DNA of 64,000 bases from Bacteroidia bacterium (GTDB taxonomy: Bacteria > Bacteroidota > Bacteroidia > J057): positions 1 to 64,000 of the forward strand of contig JALEFZ010000020.1 of assembly GCA_022760475.1 (NCBI GenBank), read 5' to 3'. Under the pieces are notes generated by a model. The model was not told the DNA's origin. It made no database searches and was given only the letters and a program-made list of their open reading frames with translations. Both the position numbers and the translations under genes were made by a program. This document shows positions 15,867-24,159 of the stretch, piece by piece. Each line of letters opens with the position of its first letter. Position 1 is the stretch's first letter.

Positions 15867-16283
15867 CTAGACTTTTCCCCCTTGGGAGAGGATGTTAATT
15901 AAGCACACGGCATTGAGCGCTGCCAATACCCCCTCAGCAACGATTACTCGAATCAGATTTTTATGGGGGATGCCATCCAACACGAGACTGGTAAGCCTTC
16001 CAAATACGACGCCTGATAGGATAAGCGTGGTGATTGTGAACGAAGCAATACGGAAGTCTGAACTAATTATCCCAATTTCGGCAATTATTCCCGCCATCAA
16101 CATTACAGCCCCGACTCCCCGAATTTCATTGACCAGACCAATATGCATATCCAGATTATTGGCAGGGTCCTCAAAATAGCTTTGTAGGAAAACAGCCTTT
16201 GCCGGGTTGATAAGTCTCATGGAACAAGCATAGACCAAGGCTAAGCCAGAAAAGGATAAAACAACTATTTGGAAAATTTCCAT
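15867..16283 (-). CDS. DUF4345 family membrane protein (copy 1)
   Basis: A 138-residue protein with four predicted membrane helices, matching the DUF4345 family in length and pattern. Shared family features are the opening helix with YACSMRLINP, the FLQSYF(E)DP segment, HIGLVNEIRGVGAVML, and the GRLTSLVLDGIPH motif between helices 3 and 4. It is a close paralogue of the protein at 17834-18262, with the same motifs at the same places. The two copies flank an epoxide-hydrolase-like gene and share an upstream DNA element with it. No biochemical function is known for the family. Confidence 0.85.
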   Translation of the reverse strand: MEIFQIVVLSFSGLALVYACSMRLINPAKAVFLQSYFEDPANNLDMHIGLVNEIRGVGAVMLMAGIIAEIGIISSDFRIASFTITTLILSGVVFGRLTSLVLDGIPHKNLIRVIVAEGVLAALNAVCLINILSQGGKV

Positions 16284-16335
16284 GGTACTCTATAGTTTTG
16301 GGCACAATGGCCTGTTTGTTAAGACTTGTTATGCA

Positions 16336-16386
16336 CAAAGGTCTCCCATAGATTAGTAAATACATTTCATCTATCTTAAAAAAATC
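16336..16386 (-). promoter_or_regulatory. Shared bipartite upstream element, copy 1 (DUF4345 copy 1)
   Basis: On the + strand this reads CAAAGGTCTCCC, then 11 bases, then AATACATTTCATCTATCTTAA. The other two copies (17623-17670 and 18289-18336) have CAAAGGTCTTTG, the same 11-base gap, and AAAACTTTTCACCTA followed by an A-rich run. It lies about 53-103 bases before the start codon. This is the most diverged of the three copies. Confidence 0.55.
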
Positions 16387-16464
16387 GAGGCGGCTATACT
16401 TTTTTTGACCTAATCAAAAAAAATATTACTAACAGATTCTTCCACTCATTTCCTGGATAAAAAG

Positions 16465-16505
16465 GGCTCTCTACAAAACATGGGTCTTGTGGAGAGCCTT
16501 TTTTA
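16465..16505 (-). terminator. Strong terminator, probably bidirectional
   Basis: A 12-bp stem (GGCTCTCTACAA with TTGTGGAGAGCC, one G-T wobble) and a 10-base loop. It is flanked by an A-run on the left and a T-run on the right, so it can end transcription both ways. It lies just downstream of the hydrolase gene on the minus strand. Confidence 0.8.
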
Positions 16506-16522
16506 ATTCCAAGTTTTTTGAT

Positions 16523-17593
16523 TTAGGACAAGGGCTTGGACAAAAACTCCCTCATTGCCTGAGTTGCAGCCTCCGGCGCCCCCAATTGGAAGAAATGGTT
16601 CCCATCAATGAACTGAACCCTCCCATTGGCTACAAAATCAGGGGTATTCTCATACTCTTCAGGATGTTGTCCAGGGTCGTTCTTCCCCTGCAAAAACAAG
16701 ACTGGCATGCTCATTTTTGCAAATAGGAAATTGTGGCGATCCTCAAGCTCTTGCTCCAGGCTAGTGTGGTCAAACTGTCTGGGAGAAGCCTCCGCGATAC
16801 CCTTGTACTTGATTTCATAATCCAGTCTACGAAGAACTTCCGGGCTGATATCTTTTACGCGATACATACTGGCAGCATAAGCCAAACGAGGGAAACCAGT
16901 CCATTTCATCAGGTTGGGAAACCAGGAAGCAGAAAATAGTTTATGTGGTGGTTTGGGATCTCCGTGTGGTTCATTGGCTGACTGCTGCATGCGTACATAG
17001 CGCATCACACGCTGTTCCATACCTTCGACATTCAGGAGATGATCAGATATCACTGATCCCCTGTCATGTCCCCCCAGGTTGAAACGATCCACTCCGATGG
17101 TATCCAGCAAACTCCCCAAAGAGGCTGCAATGGCTGAGTATCGGTAATCTAGCTCAAGGCGCTTATCGCTTTGGCCATTTCCAAGTGTGTCCACTGCAAT
17201 GCAATAAAACTGATCGGATAGGTCCCTCATTTGGTTGTGGAAAGTATACCAGCTTTCGGGGAAACCATGCACCATCACAAATGGCTCATTTTCAGGATTT
17301 CCAGTAGTAACGAAATGCCAGGTAATGCCGTCTGCATCTACATACCAATGTGTAGCTTCTACCTCGCCAATCATTTCAATCTCACCATGCGCGTTCTCCG
17401 CGCCTTGTGGAAGTGACTCTGGATGGGGATAACGCATATCCGAAGTAATGGCTACGTTTTCATGGATTCCATTATCGTGAACATTTGTAAGGCTAAGGTC
17501 TTCCTGCGAGATGTACTCCAATCTTGGCAAGGCTTGAGGTGAAAGCATTTTAATCAGCTTCAATAACTCTTTGGGATTATTGATCTTTGTCAT
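16523..17593 (-). CDS. Alpha/beta hydrolase, epoxide hydrolase / dehalogenase-like
   Basis: A 356-residue alpha/beta hydrolase. The core begins about residue 85. Visible motifs are the oxyanion loop HGFPESW, the nucleophile elbow GGHDRGSVIS (Asp nucleophile as in epoxide hydrolases and haloacetate/haloalkane dehalogenases, not Ser), the acid region LFLQGKNDPGQ and the catalytic His in IDGNHFFQLGAP. The first 80 residues are an extra N-terminal segment without a signal peptide, so the enzyme is probably cytoplasmic. Substrate cannot be assigned. It sits between two DUF4345 paralogues, all on the minus strand, downstream of a Crp/Fnr-type regulator, and carries the same upstream element as they do. 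A decayed fragment of a relative lies at 19234-19281. Confidence 0.85.
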   Translation of the reverse strand: MTKINNPKELLKLIKMLSPQALPRLEYISQEDLSLTNVHDNGIHENVAITSDMRYPHPESLPQGAENAHGEIEMIGEVEATHWYVDADGITWHFVTTGNPENEPFVMVHGFPESWYTFHNQMRDLSDQFYCIAVDTLGNGQSDKRLELDYRYSAIAASLGSLLDTIGVDRFNLGGHDRGSVISDHLLNVEGMEQRVMRYVRMQQSANEPHGDPKPPHKLFSASWFPNLMKWTGFPRLAYAASMYRVKDISPEVLRRLDYEIKYKGIAEASPRQFDHTSLEQELEDRHNFLFAKMSMPVLFLQGKNDPGQHPEEYENTPDFVANGRVQFIDGNHFFQLGAPEAATQAMREFLSKPLS

Positions 17594-17622
17594 AATATTT
17601 TCTTGTTAATGTGTTACTGGTT

Positions 17623-17670
17623 CAAAGGTCTTTGTTAAGACTGGGAAAACTTTTCACCTAGATTAAAAAG
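17623..17670 (-). promoter_or_regulatory. Shared bipartite upstream element, copy 2 (hydrolase)
   Basis: On the + strand this reads CAAAGGTCTTTG, then 11 bases, then AAAACTTTTCACCTA and an A-rich run. It lies 30-77 bases before the hydrolase start codon. The first part is an interrupted palindrome (CAAAG-N2-CTTTG). The same two parts with the same spacing occur before both DUF4345 genes, so it is probably a common promoter and/or operator. Confidence 0.65.
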
Positions 17671-17833
17671 CGTGCGACCCCTTCCTTTTTTTATTCCGCT
17701 CAATCGAGCTTAGGATCAGTTGGAATACAGCAAGACATGAGGCCACACTTTACATGGGTATAAAAAACTTCTTTTGCAGAAAATGGGTCAATGGAATAGG
17801 AAGTGGCTGATCCTTCTGGCTCAGGAATTAGAG

Positions 17834-18262
17834 TCATTTAGCCCCTGATGCCTTGGATCCTTTGATCAGGACATCAAGCAGGCATAGAATATTGAATGCA
17901 AATAACACTCCCTCTGCAATCGCAGCTCGGATTATTGCTGGATGTGGAACGCCATCAATTGTCAGACCCAGTGATCGCCCTAGGATGACACCGCCAAAAA
18001 TAACCGTCGTAATGACAAATGAAACTAGCCTAAAATCCCACCTGATGGCACCGATAAGGGCTATTATTCCACCAAACAACATAACACCACCTTCAGCTCG
18101 AATTTCGTTTGCCAAATCCTTATGGATTGCTAGACTATTGTCAGGATTCTCAAAATACGATTGCAGGAATATAGCGTCAGTGGGATTGATCAATCTCGAT
18201 GCACAGGCATAAAACAATGCCATGCCTGATAAAGCCAGAACAACGACCTTAAATGTTTTCAT
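17834..18262 (-). CDS. DUF4345 family membrane protein (copy 2)
   Basis: A 142-residue four-helix membrane protein, paralogous to the one at 15867-16283. Both have YAC(S/A)xRLINP near residue 20, FLQSYFE(D/N)P, then ANEIR(A/G)xGGVML and a GVPH/GIPH turn between the last helices. It lies between the Crp/Fnr-type regulator gene (84 bases upstream) and the hydrolase gene. The role is unknown. Duplication around the hydrolase suggests that the three products serve one response. Confidence 0.85.
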   Translation of the reverse strand: MKTFKVVVLALSGMALFYACASRLINPTDAIFLQSYFENPDNSLAIHKDLANEIRAEGGVMLFGGIIALIGAIRWDFRLVSFVITTVIFGGVILGRSLGLTIDGVPHPAIIRAAIAEGVLFAFNILCLLDVLIKGSKASGAK

Positions 18263-19417: not shown

Positions 19418-19450
19418 GTTCAGTACACCTTCCAGTTTGTTCATTCCACC
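19418..19450 (+). promoter_or_regulatory. Direct repeat pair, likely LytTR binding site
   Basis: Two imperfect 12-base copies, GTTCAGTACACC (19418) and GTTCATTCCACC (19439), start 21 bases apart, two turns of the helix. A matching pair with the same period lies at 23314-23346. Regulators with LytTR domains bind such direct repeats. A LytTR regulator gene sits between the two sites. Confidence 0.6.
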
Positions 19451-19492
19451 ATAGTTCTTAAATCGAAGCACACAAAATCATAGTTCATTGTA

Positions 19493-21355
19493 ATGGATTT
19501 CAAACCCATAAGAATGAATAAAATGACCCATCACTTTCTTTTAACCTCCTTAATCCTTTCAGTCTTTCTGTTGTTTTCTTGCGACAAGGAAGATGACATC
19601 ATAGAAGATATTCACAATATTGAAGACCATCAGGCTGATACACTTACTAGCTCGAGTGGTGTACAATTCGTCCGAACTCCTGATGAGTGTTTTCAAGACC
19701 TGCCCGACTGGCCTTATGCCTATCAATATGTTGAAATAGACGGACTGCGTCAAGCCTATGTAGAATCTGGACCAGCCAATGGCGAGCTAGTCTTGTTGAT
19801 ACATGGCCAACCCAGTTGGTCATACCTGTATCGAAGCATGATACCCGTTTTGGCGGATGCAGGTTATAGGGTCATTGCCATGGATCATTTGGGTATGGGG
19901 CGTTCTGACAAACCCACTGACCTTGATGAATACAGTTATCTGGGGCATGCCAGTCGAATGGAACAATTCATCCAGGAGCTTGGACTAAGTGACATCAATT
20001 TGTTTGTGCAAGACTGGGGAAGTCTCATTGGCCTTAGGGTGGCTGGGCTACATCCCGAATGGTTTTCTTCTATCAGCGTTGGCAATGGCACCCTTCCTGT
20101 GTTGCCGTCAGGTACCCAGCCTATAGCCCCCATTGCAAACCCCAATGTCATGGAAGACCTCGCTTTTCCATTTGCTAATTTCCCTCCACAACAGACTCCC
20201 TTCTATGACAGTTGTGAATTGATCGTTAGCTCAGGTACAGAAGATTTTGAGGCTTGGGCCAACTATGCCATGAAGGGCTCATCTTTCAAAGCCTCTGAAG
20301 TCCTAGAAGCCCTGACCTGGTTTGACCTTCCGACTGACGAAGAGGCTGCCTATGATGCACCATTTCCAAGTAGGGCATACATGGCTGGAGCACGTAAATT
20401 CCCCTCCTTGGTCAATGAATTGGCAGGTATAAACGAAAAAGCCTGGGCAGGACTTAGCTCTTACGAAAAACCTTTCCTCACGATATGGGGAGCCAATGAT
20501 GCTGGCAGCCTGGGCGCCTGTGAAACACAACAAAATTTGATTGTCAATGTACCTGGTGCAGCAGGAAAACCCCATGTAAGGCTAGATGAAGCCGGACATT
20601 TCCTACAGGATGATCAAGGCGTCGAAATAGCCAATCGCCTCATAGATTTCTATGCGACGGATTGGGATATTGTAGGCTTGGATTCTTGTGAGAATTTCGA
20701 TAGCCCCATTCAGAATGAGGCCAGAACGCAGTTCCTGGCTCCTCCCGCTGATTTAAGAAATTTCAGGTATGGTGAAGTCATGCCAGTATTTGAATGTACA
20801 GGGGGATTTATCACTGAAGTGTATGCTACGCTCTCTTTCAACGACTGCCCAGAAATGGACTGGTATGCATTGGATGGAGAAGACCTAAAAAACCAGATGG
20901 GAGCTGTGGAATTGAAATTAAATGGACCCAGGCATTTCCTCATGAACCAGCTTTCAGGTGGCTCCTCTGGGGGTAGTACGGGTTTTGAAAAAATAGCTAC
21001 TTTTGGAAACCTGCAAATGCAGTTAGCTGCGCAAATTAGTGGGAATCCTGATGAGAGCCTTTACACAGAAAATGAGGTTCAGCGCAGCACTACCTTTGTT
21101 TACAAAGCTGGAAATGAGGTTTACAAGCTCATCAATCCACAAGGAGAAGAATACGTCATGCAATCCTACAGCAGAATTATAAACCCCAACTTGGCGATTG
21201 AAGACCTGTCTACCCTAGGCACAAGCCTTAACCTACCCGCAGGTTGGACATACAAAACAGAAATCTTAACCTCAGATTTGAGTTTAACAGCCAATGGGAT
21301 CGCATATGTAATTCAAGATGATTTGGAAAATTCTTATCAGAAAGTTGACAATTAA
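19493..21355 (+). CDS. Haloalkane-dehalogenase-like lipoprotein with extra C-terminal domain
   Basis: A 620-residue exported protein. The lipoprotein signal ends at LLFSC (Cys 30); in-frame ATGs at 19514 and 19523 also leave a good signal peptide and may be the true start. Residues about 70-390 are an alpha/beta hydrolase of the haloalkane dehalogenase type: oxyanion region HGQPSWSYLYRSMIP, DHLGMGRSDKP, nucleophile elbow FVQDWGSLIG (Asp), acid region TIWGANDAG and the His in DEAGHFLQDDQG. Residues about 400-620 form a separate domain that I do not recognise (starting FRYGEVMPVFECTGGF). Surface-anchored dehalogenases are unusual; the substrate is unknown. It ends 115 bases before a LytS-type kinase gene and has a probable LytTR site upstream. 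Confidence 0.8.
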   Translation: MDFKPIRMNKMTHHFLLTSLILSVFLLFSCDKEDDIIEDIHNIEDHQADTLTSSSGVQFVRTPDECFQDLPDWPYAYQYVEIDGLRQAYVESGPANGELVLLIHGQPSWSYLYRSMIPVLADAGYRVIAMDHLGMGRSDKPTDLDEYSYLGHASRMEQFIQELGLSDINLFVQDWGSLIGLRVAGLHPEWFSSISVGNGTLPVLPSGTQPIAPIANPNVMEDLAFPFANFPPQQTPFYDSCELIVSSGTEDFEAWANYAMKGSSFKASEVLEALTWFDLPTDEEAAYDAPFPSRAYMAGARKFPSLVNELAGINEKAWAGLSSYEKPFLTIWGANDAGSLGACETQQNLIVNVPGAAGKPHVRLDEAGHFLQDDQGVEIANRLIDFYATDWDIVGLDSCENFDSPIQNEARTQFLAPPADLRNFRYGEVMPVFECTGGFITEVYATLSFNDCPEMDWYALDGEDLKNQMGAVELKLNGPRHFLMNQLSGGSSGGSTGFEKIATFGNLQMQLAAQISGNPDESLYTENEVQRSTTFVYKAGNEVYKLINPQGEEYVMQSYSRIINPNLAIEDLSTLGTSLNLPAGWTYKTEILTSDLSLTANGIAYVIQDDLENSYQKVDN

Positions 21356-21426
21356 GTCTTAACCTGTAGAAATTTTCTAAATTAAAATAAATAGGTGGGG
21401 ATACTGACTTTGGCCCTAACATTCAA

Positions 21427-21463
21427 GGAGGTACTTTTTTAAACAGCTTATGAAAGTACCTCC
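21427..21463 (+). promoter_or_regulatory. Inverted repeat just before the sensor kinase start
   Basis: Two perfect 11-base arms (GGAGGTACTTT at 21427 and AAAGTACCTCC at 21453) around a 15-base loop, ending 6 bases before the kinase ATG. No T-run follows the stem on the + strand, so it does not look like a plain terminator for the preceding gene. It may be an operator or an RNA hairpin affecting translation start. Confidence 0.6.
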
Positions 21464-21469
21464 ACTAAA

Positions 21470-22456
21470 TTGAAAAGTGATTCAAGTTTGAAGCGAAACA
21501 TAAATATCATATTGCCCATTGTCCTTGCGATTTTACTTCCAGGACTTAGTTTGTACGCCCATGCACAGTCAAGTACTCCCAATAATTTTGGTTTTTACAC
21601 AACTTGGTTGTTGACCTCCATCTTTTTCTATAATCAATGGTATTTGCTGTGGCATTTATGGGACATCAGGCAGAAATACCAAGACCGAAAATTTTTATTT
21701 AAACTGGCCGCTTTTTGTTTAGGGCTAATCCTAAGCCTTGTATGCATCAGCTATGCAATCCAAGAATTTCAATTCAACCATTCTGTGAGGTTTATTTTTA
21801 CCTTATTTTTATGTCTAGCCATCCAATTTGCCCTTAAGACTCAAGAGAGTTTGTCTCAATTACAATTGGAGAAAGAACAAATACAGACTGAAAATTATAA
21901 AGCACAATTAAAGGTTCTACATGCCAAAATTGACCCTCACTTTCTGTTTAATTCTCTGAATACCCTGCGCTCAATGGTCCGGCAAAAGCATGGGAACTCT
22001 GAAAAGTTTATCCTCAGCTTGGCGGACTTTTACAGGCAGACACTCAAGTACAACGAAAATACAAAGCTACGGCTATCCGAGGAATTAACTGTGCTGGAAT
22101 CCTACCTGTTTTTGATGAAAAGCAGATATGAGGAAGCTGTAAATGTGAATATAAACATTGAGAAGACCCTCCTTTCCTTTTTCCTACCGACCCTTGCCCT
22201 CCAGGTAATAGTTGAAAATTGTTTCAAGCACAACAGCATGACTTCCAAAATGCAATTACTGATCGACATAAGTAGTACAGATGATGGGTATATCGAAGTC
22301 AAAAACAACATTCAACCTAAATTTGGAACCGTGGAATCTACAGGATATGGCCTGGATTTATTGGTCAAAAGATATGAGCTAATGGGGGTGTCCAATGGTA
22401 TCGTAATCGAAGAAACCCCTGATGAGTTTTGCGTCAAATTAAAATTAATCAACTAG
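21470..22456 (+). CDS. LytS/YpdA-type sensor histidine kinase
   Basis: A 328-residue membrane sensor kinase. Four hydrophobic helices fill residues about 10-120, then a coiled-coil linker (SLSQLQLEKEQIQTENYKAQ). The His_kinase family motif is KIDPHFLFNSLNTLRSM, with the phospho-accepting His at about residue 157. The N-box is QVIVENCFKHN and the G-box STGYGLDLLVKRYELM. It has no separate periplasmic sensor domain. Its last codon abuts the ATG of the response regulator, so the two are translationally coupled and form a two-component system. The signal is unknown. Confidence 0.93.
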   Translation: MKSDSSLKRNINIILPIVLAILLPGLSLYAHAQSSTPNNFGFYTTWLLTSIFFYNQWYLLWHLWDIRQKYQDRKFLFKLAAFCLGLILSLVCISYAIQEFQFNHSVRFIFTLFLCLAIQFALKTQESLSQLQLEKEQIQTENYKAQLKVLHAKIDPHFLFNSLNTLRSMVRQKHGNSEKFILSLADFYRQTLKYNENTKLRLSEELTVLESYLFLMKSRYEEAVNVNINIEKTLLSFFLPTLALQVIVENCFKHNSMTSKMQLLIDISSTDDGYIEVKNNIQPKFGTVESTGYGLDLLVKRYELMGVSNGIVIEETPDEFCVKLKLIN

Positions 22457-23209
22457 ATGAATGTACTGATTGTTGAAGACGAAGCACACACTGCCGAACT
22501 CTTAAAGGAAATCATAGAGCAGGACAGTGAATTCATGGTACTCGATAAGTTGGAATCCATTGTCGAAACGGTTCATTACCTCAGTAAGTATCAACAAAAT
22601 TTAGACCTGCTCTTCTTTGACATCCAATTGGCTGATGGGCAAAGTTTTGAAATATTCAAACACATTGATGTAGAGGTGCCAATAATATTCTGTACTGCCT
22701 ATGATGAATATACCTTGCAAGCCATCAAAAACAACGGCATTGATTACCTCCTCAAACCATTTAAAGAAGAGGAAATCCATCAGGCCCTTCAGAAATACAA
22801 AAGGCTTCTCAACAAGCTCAATACAAAGAACCAATCACCCGTTCATTTTGAGTCAAAAGAAAAACAATCCTACCAGAAGAGCTTTCTAGCCCGTTTCAGA
22901 GAAAAAACCGTTATAAAAAGGATAGAAGAAATCGCGCTATTTAGTGTAGAAAACGAAATGGTCTACCTTTATGGCAACAAAGGGGAAAAATTTCAGCTTT
23001 TCAAAAAATTAGAATACATCGAATCAGTCTGCGATCCCAACTTATTTTATCGAATCAATCGCCAAATGCTGGTCAACCGAGAGGCGATCTTATCCTTTGA
23101 ACCCTACTTCAATCGAAAAATAATTCTCCAACTCAACATTGAAACGGCCGATCAACCCATCGTAAGCCGATTAAAAGTCAGTCCCTTTAAGGATTGGCTG
23201 GAACAATGA
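22457..23209 (+). CDS. LytTR family response regulator
   Basis: A 250-residue regulator. The receiver domain (1-120) shows acidic residues D8/E9, phospho-acceptor D55 in LLFFDIQLADG, T80 in FCTAYDEY and K100 in DYLLKPF. A LytTR DNA-binding domain fills residues about 145-250 (FREKTVIKRIEEIALFSVENEMVYLY by type, RINRQMLVNREAI, KVSPFKDWL). It starts directly after the kinase stop. LytTR proteins bind direct repeats spaced about two helical turns; two such repeat pairs are present, before the dehalogenase-like gene and before the charged-protein gene that flank this system. Confidence 0.95.
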   Translation: MNVLIVEDEAHTAELLKEIIEQDSEFMVLDKLESIVETVHYLSKYQQNLDLLFFDIQLADGQSFEIFKHIDVEVPIIFCTAYDEYTLQAIKNNGIDYLLKPFKEEEIHQALQKYKRLLNKLNTKNQSPVHFESKEKQSYQKSFLARFREKTVIKRIEEIALFSVENEMVYLYGNKGEKFQLFKKLEYIESVCDPNLFYRINRQMLVNREAILSFEPYFNRKIILQLNIETADQPIVSRLKVSPFKDWLEQ

Positions 23210-23313
23210 CTAGAAATGGCCATGATACACATTTACCCAAAAGGTCATCTGTTCATTTCAAGGATGATTGCACACAGGTCAGACCAAGAATAGATTCTTT
23301 TCAATCCCTCCTG

Positions 23314-23346
23314 GTTCAATACACCTTTTGTCTTGTTCAATTCACT
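23314..23346 (+). promoter_or_regulatory. Direct repeat pair, likely LytTR binding site
   Basis: GTTCAATACACC (23314) and GTTCAATTCACT (23335) start 21 bases apart, as in the pair at 19418-19450. The site is 82 bases before the ATG of the charged exported protein. A weaker half-site, GTTCATTTCA, is at 23251, 63 bases (three periods) upstream. Confidence 0.6.
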
Positions 23347-23427
23347 TTAATTACTCCTATCGTCAACTGATAATTTCGTAATTATTAGGGTGTACAGTTG
23401 AATAACCACACGCTAAAACCATTAAAA

Positions 23428-24159
23428 ATGAAAAGAAATTTTTTGTTGTTAGCCTCTCTGCTCCTCCTGAGCAATCTGGTTCATGCCCAAAGGGGTAGAA
23501 ACGGGCTCGAAGCCAATCAAAACCAAAAAGCAATGGCCACAAACGAAGCACAATTGGAGAGAGATATGCAGGAATTGGCTGCATATAAGGCAAAGTTGAA
23601 CCAATTTGAAGAGGCCTTTGCTGTAAAAAATGTTGCCAAGATTGCGATTTTGAAAAAAGAATTGGAAGCTGACATGAAGCGAGAAATTGAGCAAAGCGAA
23701 ATGAAAATTGCTCAAGACAAAAAGGAATTATCCCAAAGCAAGGCTGAGGCCGCCGCCTCAGGCAGAGAATCCACAAGGAGCCGTGTTGACCGCAGAGTAC
23801 CAGATAACGATCGAAAAGATGGACGTGATGTAAGAGACGATCGCCGCGATAGGAAAGACGATCAGAGGGATGCGGTGGATGACAGGAATGACCTGGAGCG
23901 ACAAATCGCCCGAACCAACCGCCAAAAACAAATTTATTCTAGCCTGCAGGCCATGACTTTTTCATTCGAGCCTGCCGCTTACGAGAAGGCTGTCGCAAAA
24001 AAAGTCCTTTTCAATGAATTTGCCACCAGCATGGAACAGGATATTGCGGCCACCAAAGCAGAAATTGCTGAAGATAAAAGGGAAGCAGCAGAAGACAGAA
24101 GAGAACGTAGGGAAGATAGACGAGAAAGAGGTGAGAAACGCAGAAACAGAAACTGGTAA
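23428..24159 (+). CDS. Exported highly charged coiled-coil protein, function unknown
   Basis: A 243-residue protein. I use ATG 23428, which gives a classic signal peptide (MKRNFLLLASLLLLSNLVHAQ); an upstream in-frame TTG at 23398 would add ten residues before it. The mature part is almost all alpha-helical and charged: an E/K-rich coiled coil (residues 35-105), a central D/R-rich stretch (DRRVPDNDRKDGRDVRDDRR), a short less-charged piece with Phe and Ala, and an E/R-rich C-terminus (EDRRERREDRRERGEKRR). No known domain is evident. It follows the LytS/LytTR genes and has a probable LytTR site upstream, so it may be an envelope-stress effector controlled by that system. Confidence 0.75.
   Translation: MKRNFLLLASLLLLSNLVHAQRGRNGLEANQNQKAMATNEAQLERDMQELAAYKAKLNQFEEAFAVKNVAKIAILKKELEADMKREIEQSEMKIAQDKKELSQSKAEAAASGRESTRSRVDRRVPDNDRKDGRDVRDDRRDRKDDQRDAVDDRNDLERQIARTNRQKQIYSSLQAMTFSFEPAAYEKAVAKKVLFNEFATSMEQDIAATKAEIAEDKREAAEDRRERREDRRERGEKRRNRNW

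Follow-up and report, generated by a model that had tools for sequence, protein, structure and literature searches.

A stretch of 64,000 nucleotides from a Bacteroidia bacterium, referred to here at its full length as the window, carries a LytS/LytTR two-component system, in which a PF06580 membrane kinase stands beside a REC-LytTR response regulator, flanked by two pairs of direct repeats. These repeats are very probably binding sites of the adjacent LytTR regulator, predicted from the sequence to activate three units from them, including an operon on a distant contig of the same genome (C19) that the regulator would have captured. More broadly, we lean towards the view that one LytTR regulator-promoter pairing has been kept across Bacteroidota, and in at least one Balneolota genome, amid repeated exchange of its outputs, and that here it took over an orphaned operon, joining three unrelated exported outputs. 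Direct repeats of about 21-bp period are already known for LytTR regulators (PMC4847170); the motif, the clade-wide regulon and the orphaned operon appear to be new. The sites, their rarity in the genome, their restriction to one clade, their fixed distance to a -7 element, their changing targets and a deletion scar on C19 are facts of the sequence, from which we infer that the regulator is phosphorylated, binds the sites, activates and does not repress from them, and has captured the C19 operon.

Repeat pairs at period 21 and the regulator clade that carries them

Site 1 occupies 19418-19450 of the plus strand (half-sites 19418-19429 and 19439-19450; GTTCAGTACACC-N9-GTTCATTCCACC) and is the predicted LytTR-regulator site for a dehalogenase-like gene, and site 2 occupies 23314-23346 of the same strand (23314-23325 and 23335-23346; GTTCAATACACC-N9-GTTCAATTCACT). 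Both consist of two GTTCANNNCACY blocks in the form GTTCANNNCACY-N9-GTTCANNNCACY, with an exact 21-bp period. An earlier note on this DNA had placed two such pairs at 19418/19439 and 23314/23335, ahead of a dehalogenase-like lipoprotein gene and a charged protein gene on either side of the kinase-regulator pair, and both the positions and the gene order hold.

The pattern GTTCANNNCACY-N9-GTTCANNNCACY occurs twice in the window, compared with 0 matches in 100 dinucleotide shuffles. Genome-wide tests, done as pattern searches over 6.86 Mb in 96 contigs, returned three exact matches, the third on the minus strand of C19 (G000:C19:126112-126144), with no extra copies at two or fewer mismatches and 0 matches for a reversed control pattern; a looser pattern recovered the same three sites at 0 mismatches, all its other matches in the genome lying at 2 mismatches. 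The earlier note had considered that the motif might be widespread before unrelated genes, and the genome search gave these three sites only.

Scanning the contigs of other genomes with a four-sequence regulator alignment yielded 80 loci, from Bacteroidota and one Balneolota genome, and the comparison of upstream regions in relatives with the same LytS/LytTR genes, which the earlier note had proposed, found the motif conserved. The clade consensus half-site is GTTCAATTCACC, arranged as GTTCAATTCACC-N9-GTTCAATTCACC at period 21, and pairs of GTTCAATTCA half-sites at this period far exceed those at any other in the regulator loci. The 42 nearest loci (515 kb) hold 46 period-21 sites, spread over 35 of the 42, where shuffles gave 1.8 on average and never more than 4; of the sites scoring at least 18/20, 37 have period 21 and a single one falls among the other 28 periods between 12 and 40. 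By comparison, 38 sister-LytTR loci (523 kb) contain 2 sites, a number that shuffles also reach, and neither of them scores 18/20 or better. A consensus-free test of 18 loci (L084-L101) found repeats of at least 9/10 identity in 13 of them, within 150 bp spanning the regulator stop codon; every one of these has period 21, and the other periods from 11 to 40 gave none.

The distribution of sites follows the regulator phylogeny. On a tree of 87 regulators, with the long branch L105 excluded from clade counts, sites are found in 38 of 46 clade members and in 2 of 40 sister LytTRs, with a separating branch of 100/97, and the site label requires 9 changes compared with 28.9 in shuffles (0 of 500 as low), the p-values being nominal because tree rows and sites are related by descent. 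Across 395 genomes of the class, a loose match is present in 3 of the 4 with a close regulator and in 19 of the 391 without one; matches in regulator-free genomes, mostly at chance level, were rejected as evidence, and only the association with the regulator was used. The fourth close-regulator genome (G004) has a site at two mismatches directly after its regulator gene. With the strict pattern, no sites were found in same-family genomes outside this one, the family sample holding no close orthologue; looser patterns gave the G004 site. The sites precede the target operon whether it lies upstream or downstream of the regulator gene, and they stay beside the regulator even when all other neighbouring genes differ.

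The sister clade shows a diverged form of the repeat at two LytTR loci of Chitinophaga (L120:7768-7798 and L133:7768-7798), where GGTCAATTCACC-N9-TTCCATTTCACC again has the 21-bp period and again lies immediately behind the regulator gene.

Promoter geometry and competing readings

Alignment of the sites with their downstream DNA revealed TAnCTTTG as a further conserved block, which occupies columns 67-74 when the first base of the site is column 1. Of 49 sites, 39 have a -7-like element with at most one mismatch that begins at column 66 or 67; the background rate is 0.7% per position. This block corresponds to the -7 box of Flavobacterium sigma-A, TAnnTTTG, which spans -12 to -5 (PMC9723704), and thus places the transcription start at about column 79, with predicted half-site positions of about -78 to -67 and -57 to -46. 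No TTG is concentrated at the -33 position of the aligned sites. In the window, site 1 is followed by a weak -7-like element (GTTCATTGT, 19483-19491, plus strand, columns 66-74; 5/8 to TAnnTTTG) and site 2 by one at the conserved distance (TAATTATTA, 23379-23387, plus strand; 6/8). The first gene begins 40-90 bp from the site in most loci. Scans of the region for Escherichia coli-type promoters and terminators gave no more matches than shuffles, such models being ill-suited to Bacteroidota promoters. The earlier note had taken the repeats for LytTR sites, and their tracking of this regulator's clade, not of sister LytTRs, at a fixed distance from the -7 element argues in favour of that proposal.

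In the mechanism that we propose, the LytS/YpdA-type membrane kinase (PF06580) would phosphorylate the regulator, and a dimer or two monomers of this regulator would take the tandem half-sites, binding GTTCAATTCACC-N9-GTTCAATTCACC on one helix face, some 46-78 bp before the predicted start of transcription. The fixed distance of the site upstream of the -7 element suggests that the regulator acts as an activator, and it would do so at promoters with a -7 element and without a recognisable -33 element. The first unit so activated would be the dehalogenase-like lipoprotein gene, with transcription probably reading on into the system's own lytS-lytTR, the second the gene of a charged coiled-coil protein, and the third, on C19, the genes of a secreted copper-monooxygenase-like protein and an outer-membrane protein, a unit that may formerly have had its own paralogous lytS-lytTR pair, reduced to a scar by internal deletion. 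Site-headed genes run into lytS-lytTR in many loci, an arrangement that would make the system regulate itself positively.

We see only a slight chance that the repeats serve a different transcription factor accompanying the locus, or another of the genome's many LytTR regulators. The genome contains 31 weaker relatives or fragments of the window's regulator and more than 15 REC-LytTR-like proteins, and LytTR regulators generally use repeats of such spacing (PMC4847170, PMC6193735). However, the sites follow the clade of the window's regulator and not the sister LytTRs, they persist beside it through the exchange of every other neighbour, and the genome's three closest paralogues, with 38-40% identity to it, are placed by the tree in the clade without sites.

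Repression from these sites by the adjacent regulator is about equally improbable. The sign of regulation is not given by sequence alone, but the sites keep a fixed distance upstream of the -7 element and do not cover it, no conserved TTG stands at -33, and the second half-site ends at about -46, near the position reported for activating LytTR sites, some 10 bp ahead of -35 (PMC6193735). Chance or low-complexity similarity, or remnants of mobile repeats, to which tandem arrays matching the loose pattern in some genomes (G003, G029 contig C53, G083, G291) might point, can practically be dismissed in view of the shuffles and the reversed control, the clade-specific conservation at exactly period 21, and the fact that between and just after the half-sites only a T/A-rich stretch before the second half-site, column 38 and the -7 element stand out, unlike in a copied element. 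The array in G029 (C53:7573-7771) is built of GTTCAGTACC units at a 21-bp period and is unrelated to the regulator locus.

Activation by the adjacent LytTR regulator, which we prefer to these alternatives, has several points weighing against it besides the shared descent of tree rows and sites. No site was detected in 8 of the 46 clade members; in several of these, a contig end cuts the locus or the upstream part of the operon is missing, and L074, L081 and L083 are unexplained. The 19 loose matches in regulator-free genomes of the class, at about chance level, also count on this side. In the genome itself, site 1 agrees with the clade consensus at 16/20, a weaker match than the 19/20 of site 2, and all three sites have weak -7 elements, with 5-6/8 matches.

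Exchanged targets, the C19 operon and the window locus

The genes behind the site change from locus to locus. As the first gene after it, 20 loci have one for an exported DUF2147 protein, 5 one for a TolC protein at the head of a TolC-membrane fusion protein (MFP)-FtsX-ATPase exporter, 3 one for a dehalogenase-like lipoprotein (the window, L060 and L067), 3 one for a DUF4397 lipoprotein and 3 the kinase gene itself, with others making up the remainder. In a complete genome (G301:C1; L198:2008-9492), one site heads the whole series DUF2147-TolC-MFP-FtsX permease-ATPase-DUF6268-LytS-LytTR. Compared with this arrangement, the window carries a form particular to its lineage: it lacks the exporter cassette, the site is followed by genes for other exported proteins, and the dehalogenase-like lipoprotein is a lineage-specific substitute for the usual DUF2147 or exporter output. 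The earlier note had called such a lipoprotein together with a highly charged coiled-coil protein an unfamiliar LytTR output. We found no LytTR link to DUF2147 or haloalkane dehalogenase in the open-licence literature; the usual outputs of the clade are DUF2147 proteins and the ATP-binding cassette (ABC) exporter, not dehalogenases. Taken together, the recurring targets (exporter, DUF2147 envelope protein, hydrolases and oxidases) tentatively suggest an envelope or toxicant response.

Cyclobacterium sp. SYSU L10401 (L064) has three sites, one of them before a DUF2147 protein gene. Its two further sites (L064:10092-14212) precede a pectinacetylesterase-like gene, behind which comes a dehalogenase homologue, and a fatty-acid hydroxylase gene; a fatty-acid hydroxylase-like gene likewise comes after a site-headed gene in G029 (L046:4433-5218).

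The third site of the genome, on C19, precedes a gene for a type IX secretion system (T9SS)-type secreted protein with a weak copper-monooxygenase match, followed by one for a beta-barrel-like outer-membrane protein, whose homologues adjoin and precede lytS in L061-L063. Directly after the outer-membrane protein gene, on the minus strand, lies the deletion scar of a second lytS-lytTR pair (L004:5264-5470; G000:C19:123263-123469), in which an N-terminal LytS peptide (KKTVNTLLPIALAGVLP) is fused, with a shift of reading frame, to the C-terminal 38 residues of a LytTR protein, this remnant being 76% identical to the window's regulator. On the simplest reading, a second cassette would have lost its kinase and regulator by internal deletion, keeping its site and targets, and the C19 operon is now probably read by the window's regulator, which, since no other member of the motif clade was found in this genome, is the likely reader of all three sites. 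The earlier note's picture of a small self-contained regulon did not survive, since the third, distant site has a history of its own and the system belongs to a Bacteroidota-wide family.

The window locus runs in the order haloalkane-dehalogenase-like lipoprotein, PF06580 kinase, REC-LytTR regulator and charged coiled-coil protein, all on the plus strand. The lipoprotein gene (19514-21355; NF002043, 309 bits vs a cut-off of 265) most likely starts at ATG 19514, matching the L067 orthologue, which begins MNKMT, within a longer open reading frame from 19493; its closest PDB relative is the haloalkane dehalogenase 4mj3, with which the QDWG nucleophile and AGHFLQ motifs of the putative dehalogenase align. 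The LytS/YpdA-like membrane histidine kinase (21470-22456, start TTG 21470 or TTG 21488; PF06580, 78.6 bits vs a cut-off of 25.2) has a short hydrophobic N-terminus, and its gene adjoins the regulator gene in the mapped orthologue loci. The 250-residue regulator (22457-23209) scores above the cut-offs of PF00072 and PF04397, and its D8, D55, T80 and K100 are invariant in the four-sequence alignment. The exported, highly charged coiled-coil protein (23428-24159, 243 residues) matches no Pfam or NCBIfam family and has no homologue in 59 related genomes.

G003 has two tandem kinase genes before one LytTR regulator (L047:5885-8708), the first encoding NPDFLFY in place of the usual DPHFLFN histidine motif, so that it may be a degenerate partner. 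Just upstream of the window locus, on the minus strand (15867-18262), a second alpha/beta-hydrolase gene, beside that of a Crp-like regulator, has on either side a gene for a small DUF4345-like membrane protein, the DUF4345 assignment having been tested for one of these.

Relation to known LytTR systems

The window repeats appear to have the form described for LytTR sites, two repeats of 9-11 nucleotides placed 11-13 nucleotides apart upstream of promoters, and this form is conserved with the regulator clade. YpdB of Escherichia coli binds a 10-bp direct repeat, GGCATTTCAT, with copies about 11 bp apart, upstream of a neighbouring or distant target (PMC4847170, PMC5552118). Like the window locus, YpdA/YpdB and BtsS/BtsR of this species pair a PF06580 membrane kinase with a REC-LytTR regulator, and the YpdB repeat period is also 21 bp; they differ in the half-site (GTTCAATTCACC here vs GGCATTTCAT) and in their targets, which are pyruvate transporters there and exported enzymes, DUF2147 proteins and an ABC exporter here. 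Membership of the BtsR or YpdB orthologue group was rejected, the window's regulator scoring 85.1 bits vs a BtsR cut-off of 246 and the half-site being different, and against the LytR equivalog model it scores 102.5 bits vs a cut-off of 375.

HdrRM and BrsRM of Streptococcus mutans, LytTR Regulatory Systems with autoregulated operons, activate from direct repeats that are separated by 11-13 bp and lie some 10 bp ahead of -35 (PMC6193735), a geometry very similar to that of the window sites, but they have a membrane inhibitor protein in place of a histidine kinase and half-sites of the ACCNCTTAN type. The sites of the AgrA, VirR and PlnC/PlnD family likewise comprise two imperfect direct repeats about two helical turns apart (PMC4847170); these are Firmicute regulators with other half-site sequences and virulence or bacteriocin regulons. 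No report of the half-site described here, or of any Bacteroidota LytTR motif, was found in the open-licence literature. A coevolution study of Flavobacterium johnsoniae reported mutation of a LytTR regulator in two lines that had become less susceptible to antibiotics (PMC10197871); it was not used as evidence, as that regulator is not shown to belong to this clade and the mutated tolC lies in another operon.

LytTR regulators are common in Bacteroidota. With the motif and its fixed distance to the promoter, the genes that this clade controls directly can be read off the sequence. The motif also gives a handle on the promoters of DUF2147 genes, whose function is unknown, and of the conserved ABC exporter. 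The system is a clear example, too, of regulon rewiring around a regulator that was retained, including an operon orphaned by the loss of its own regulator.

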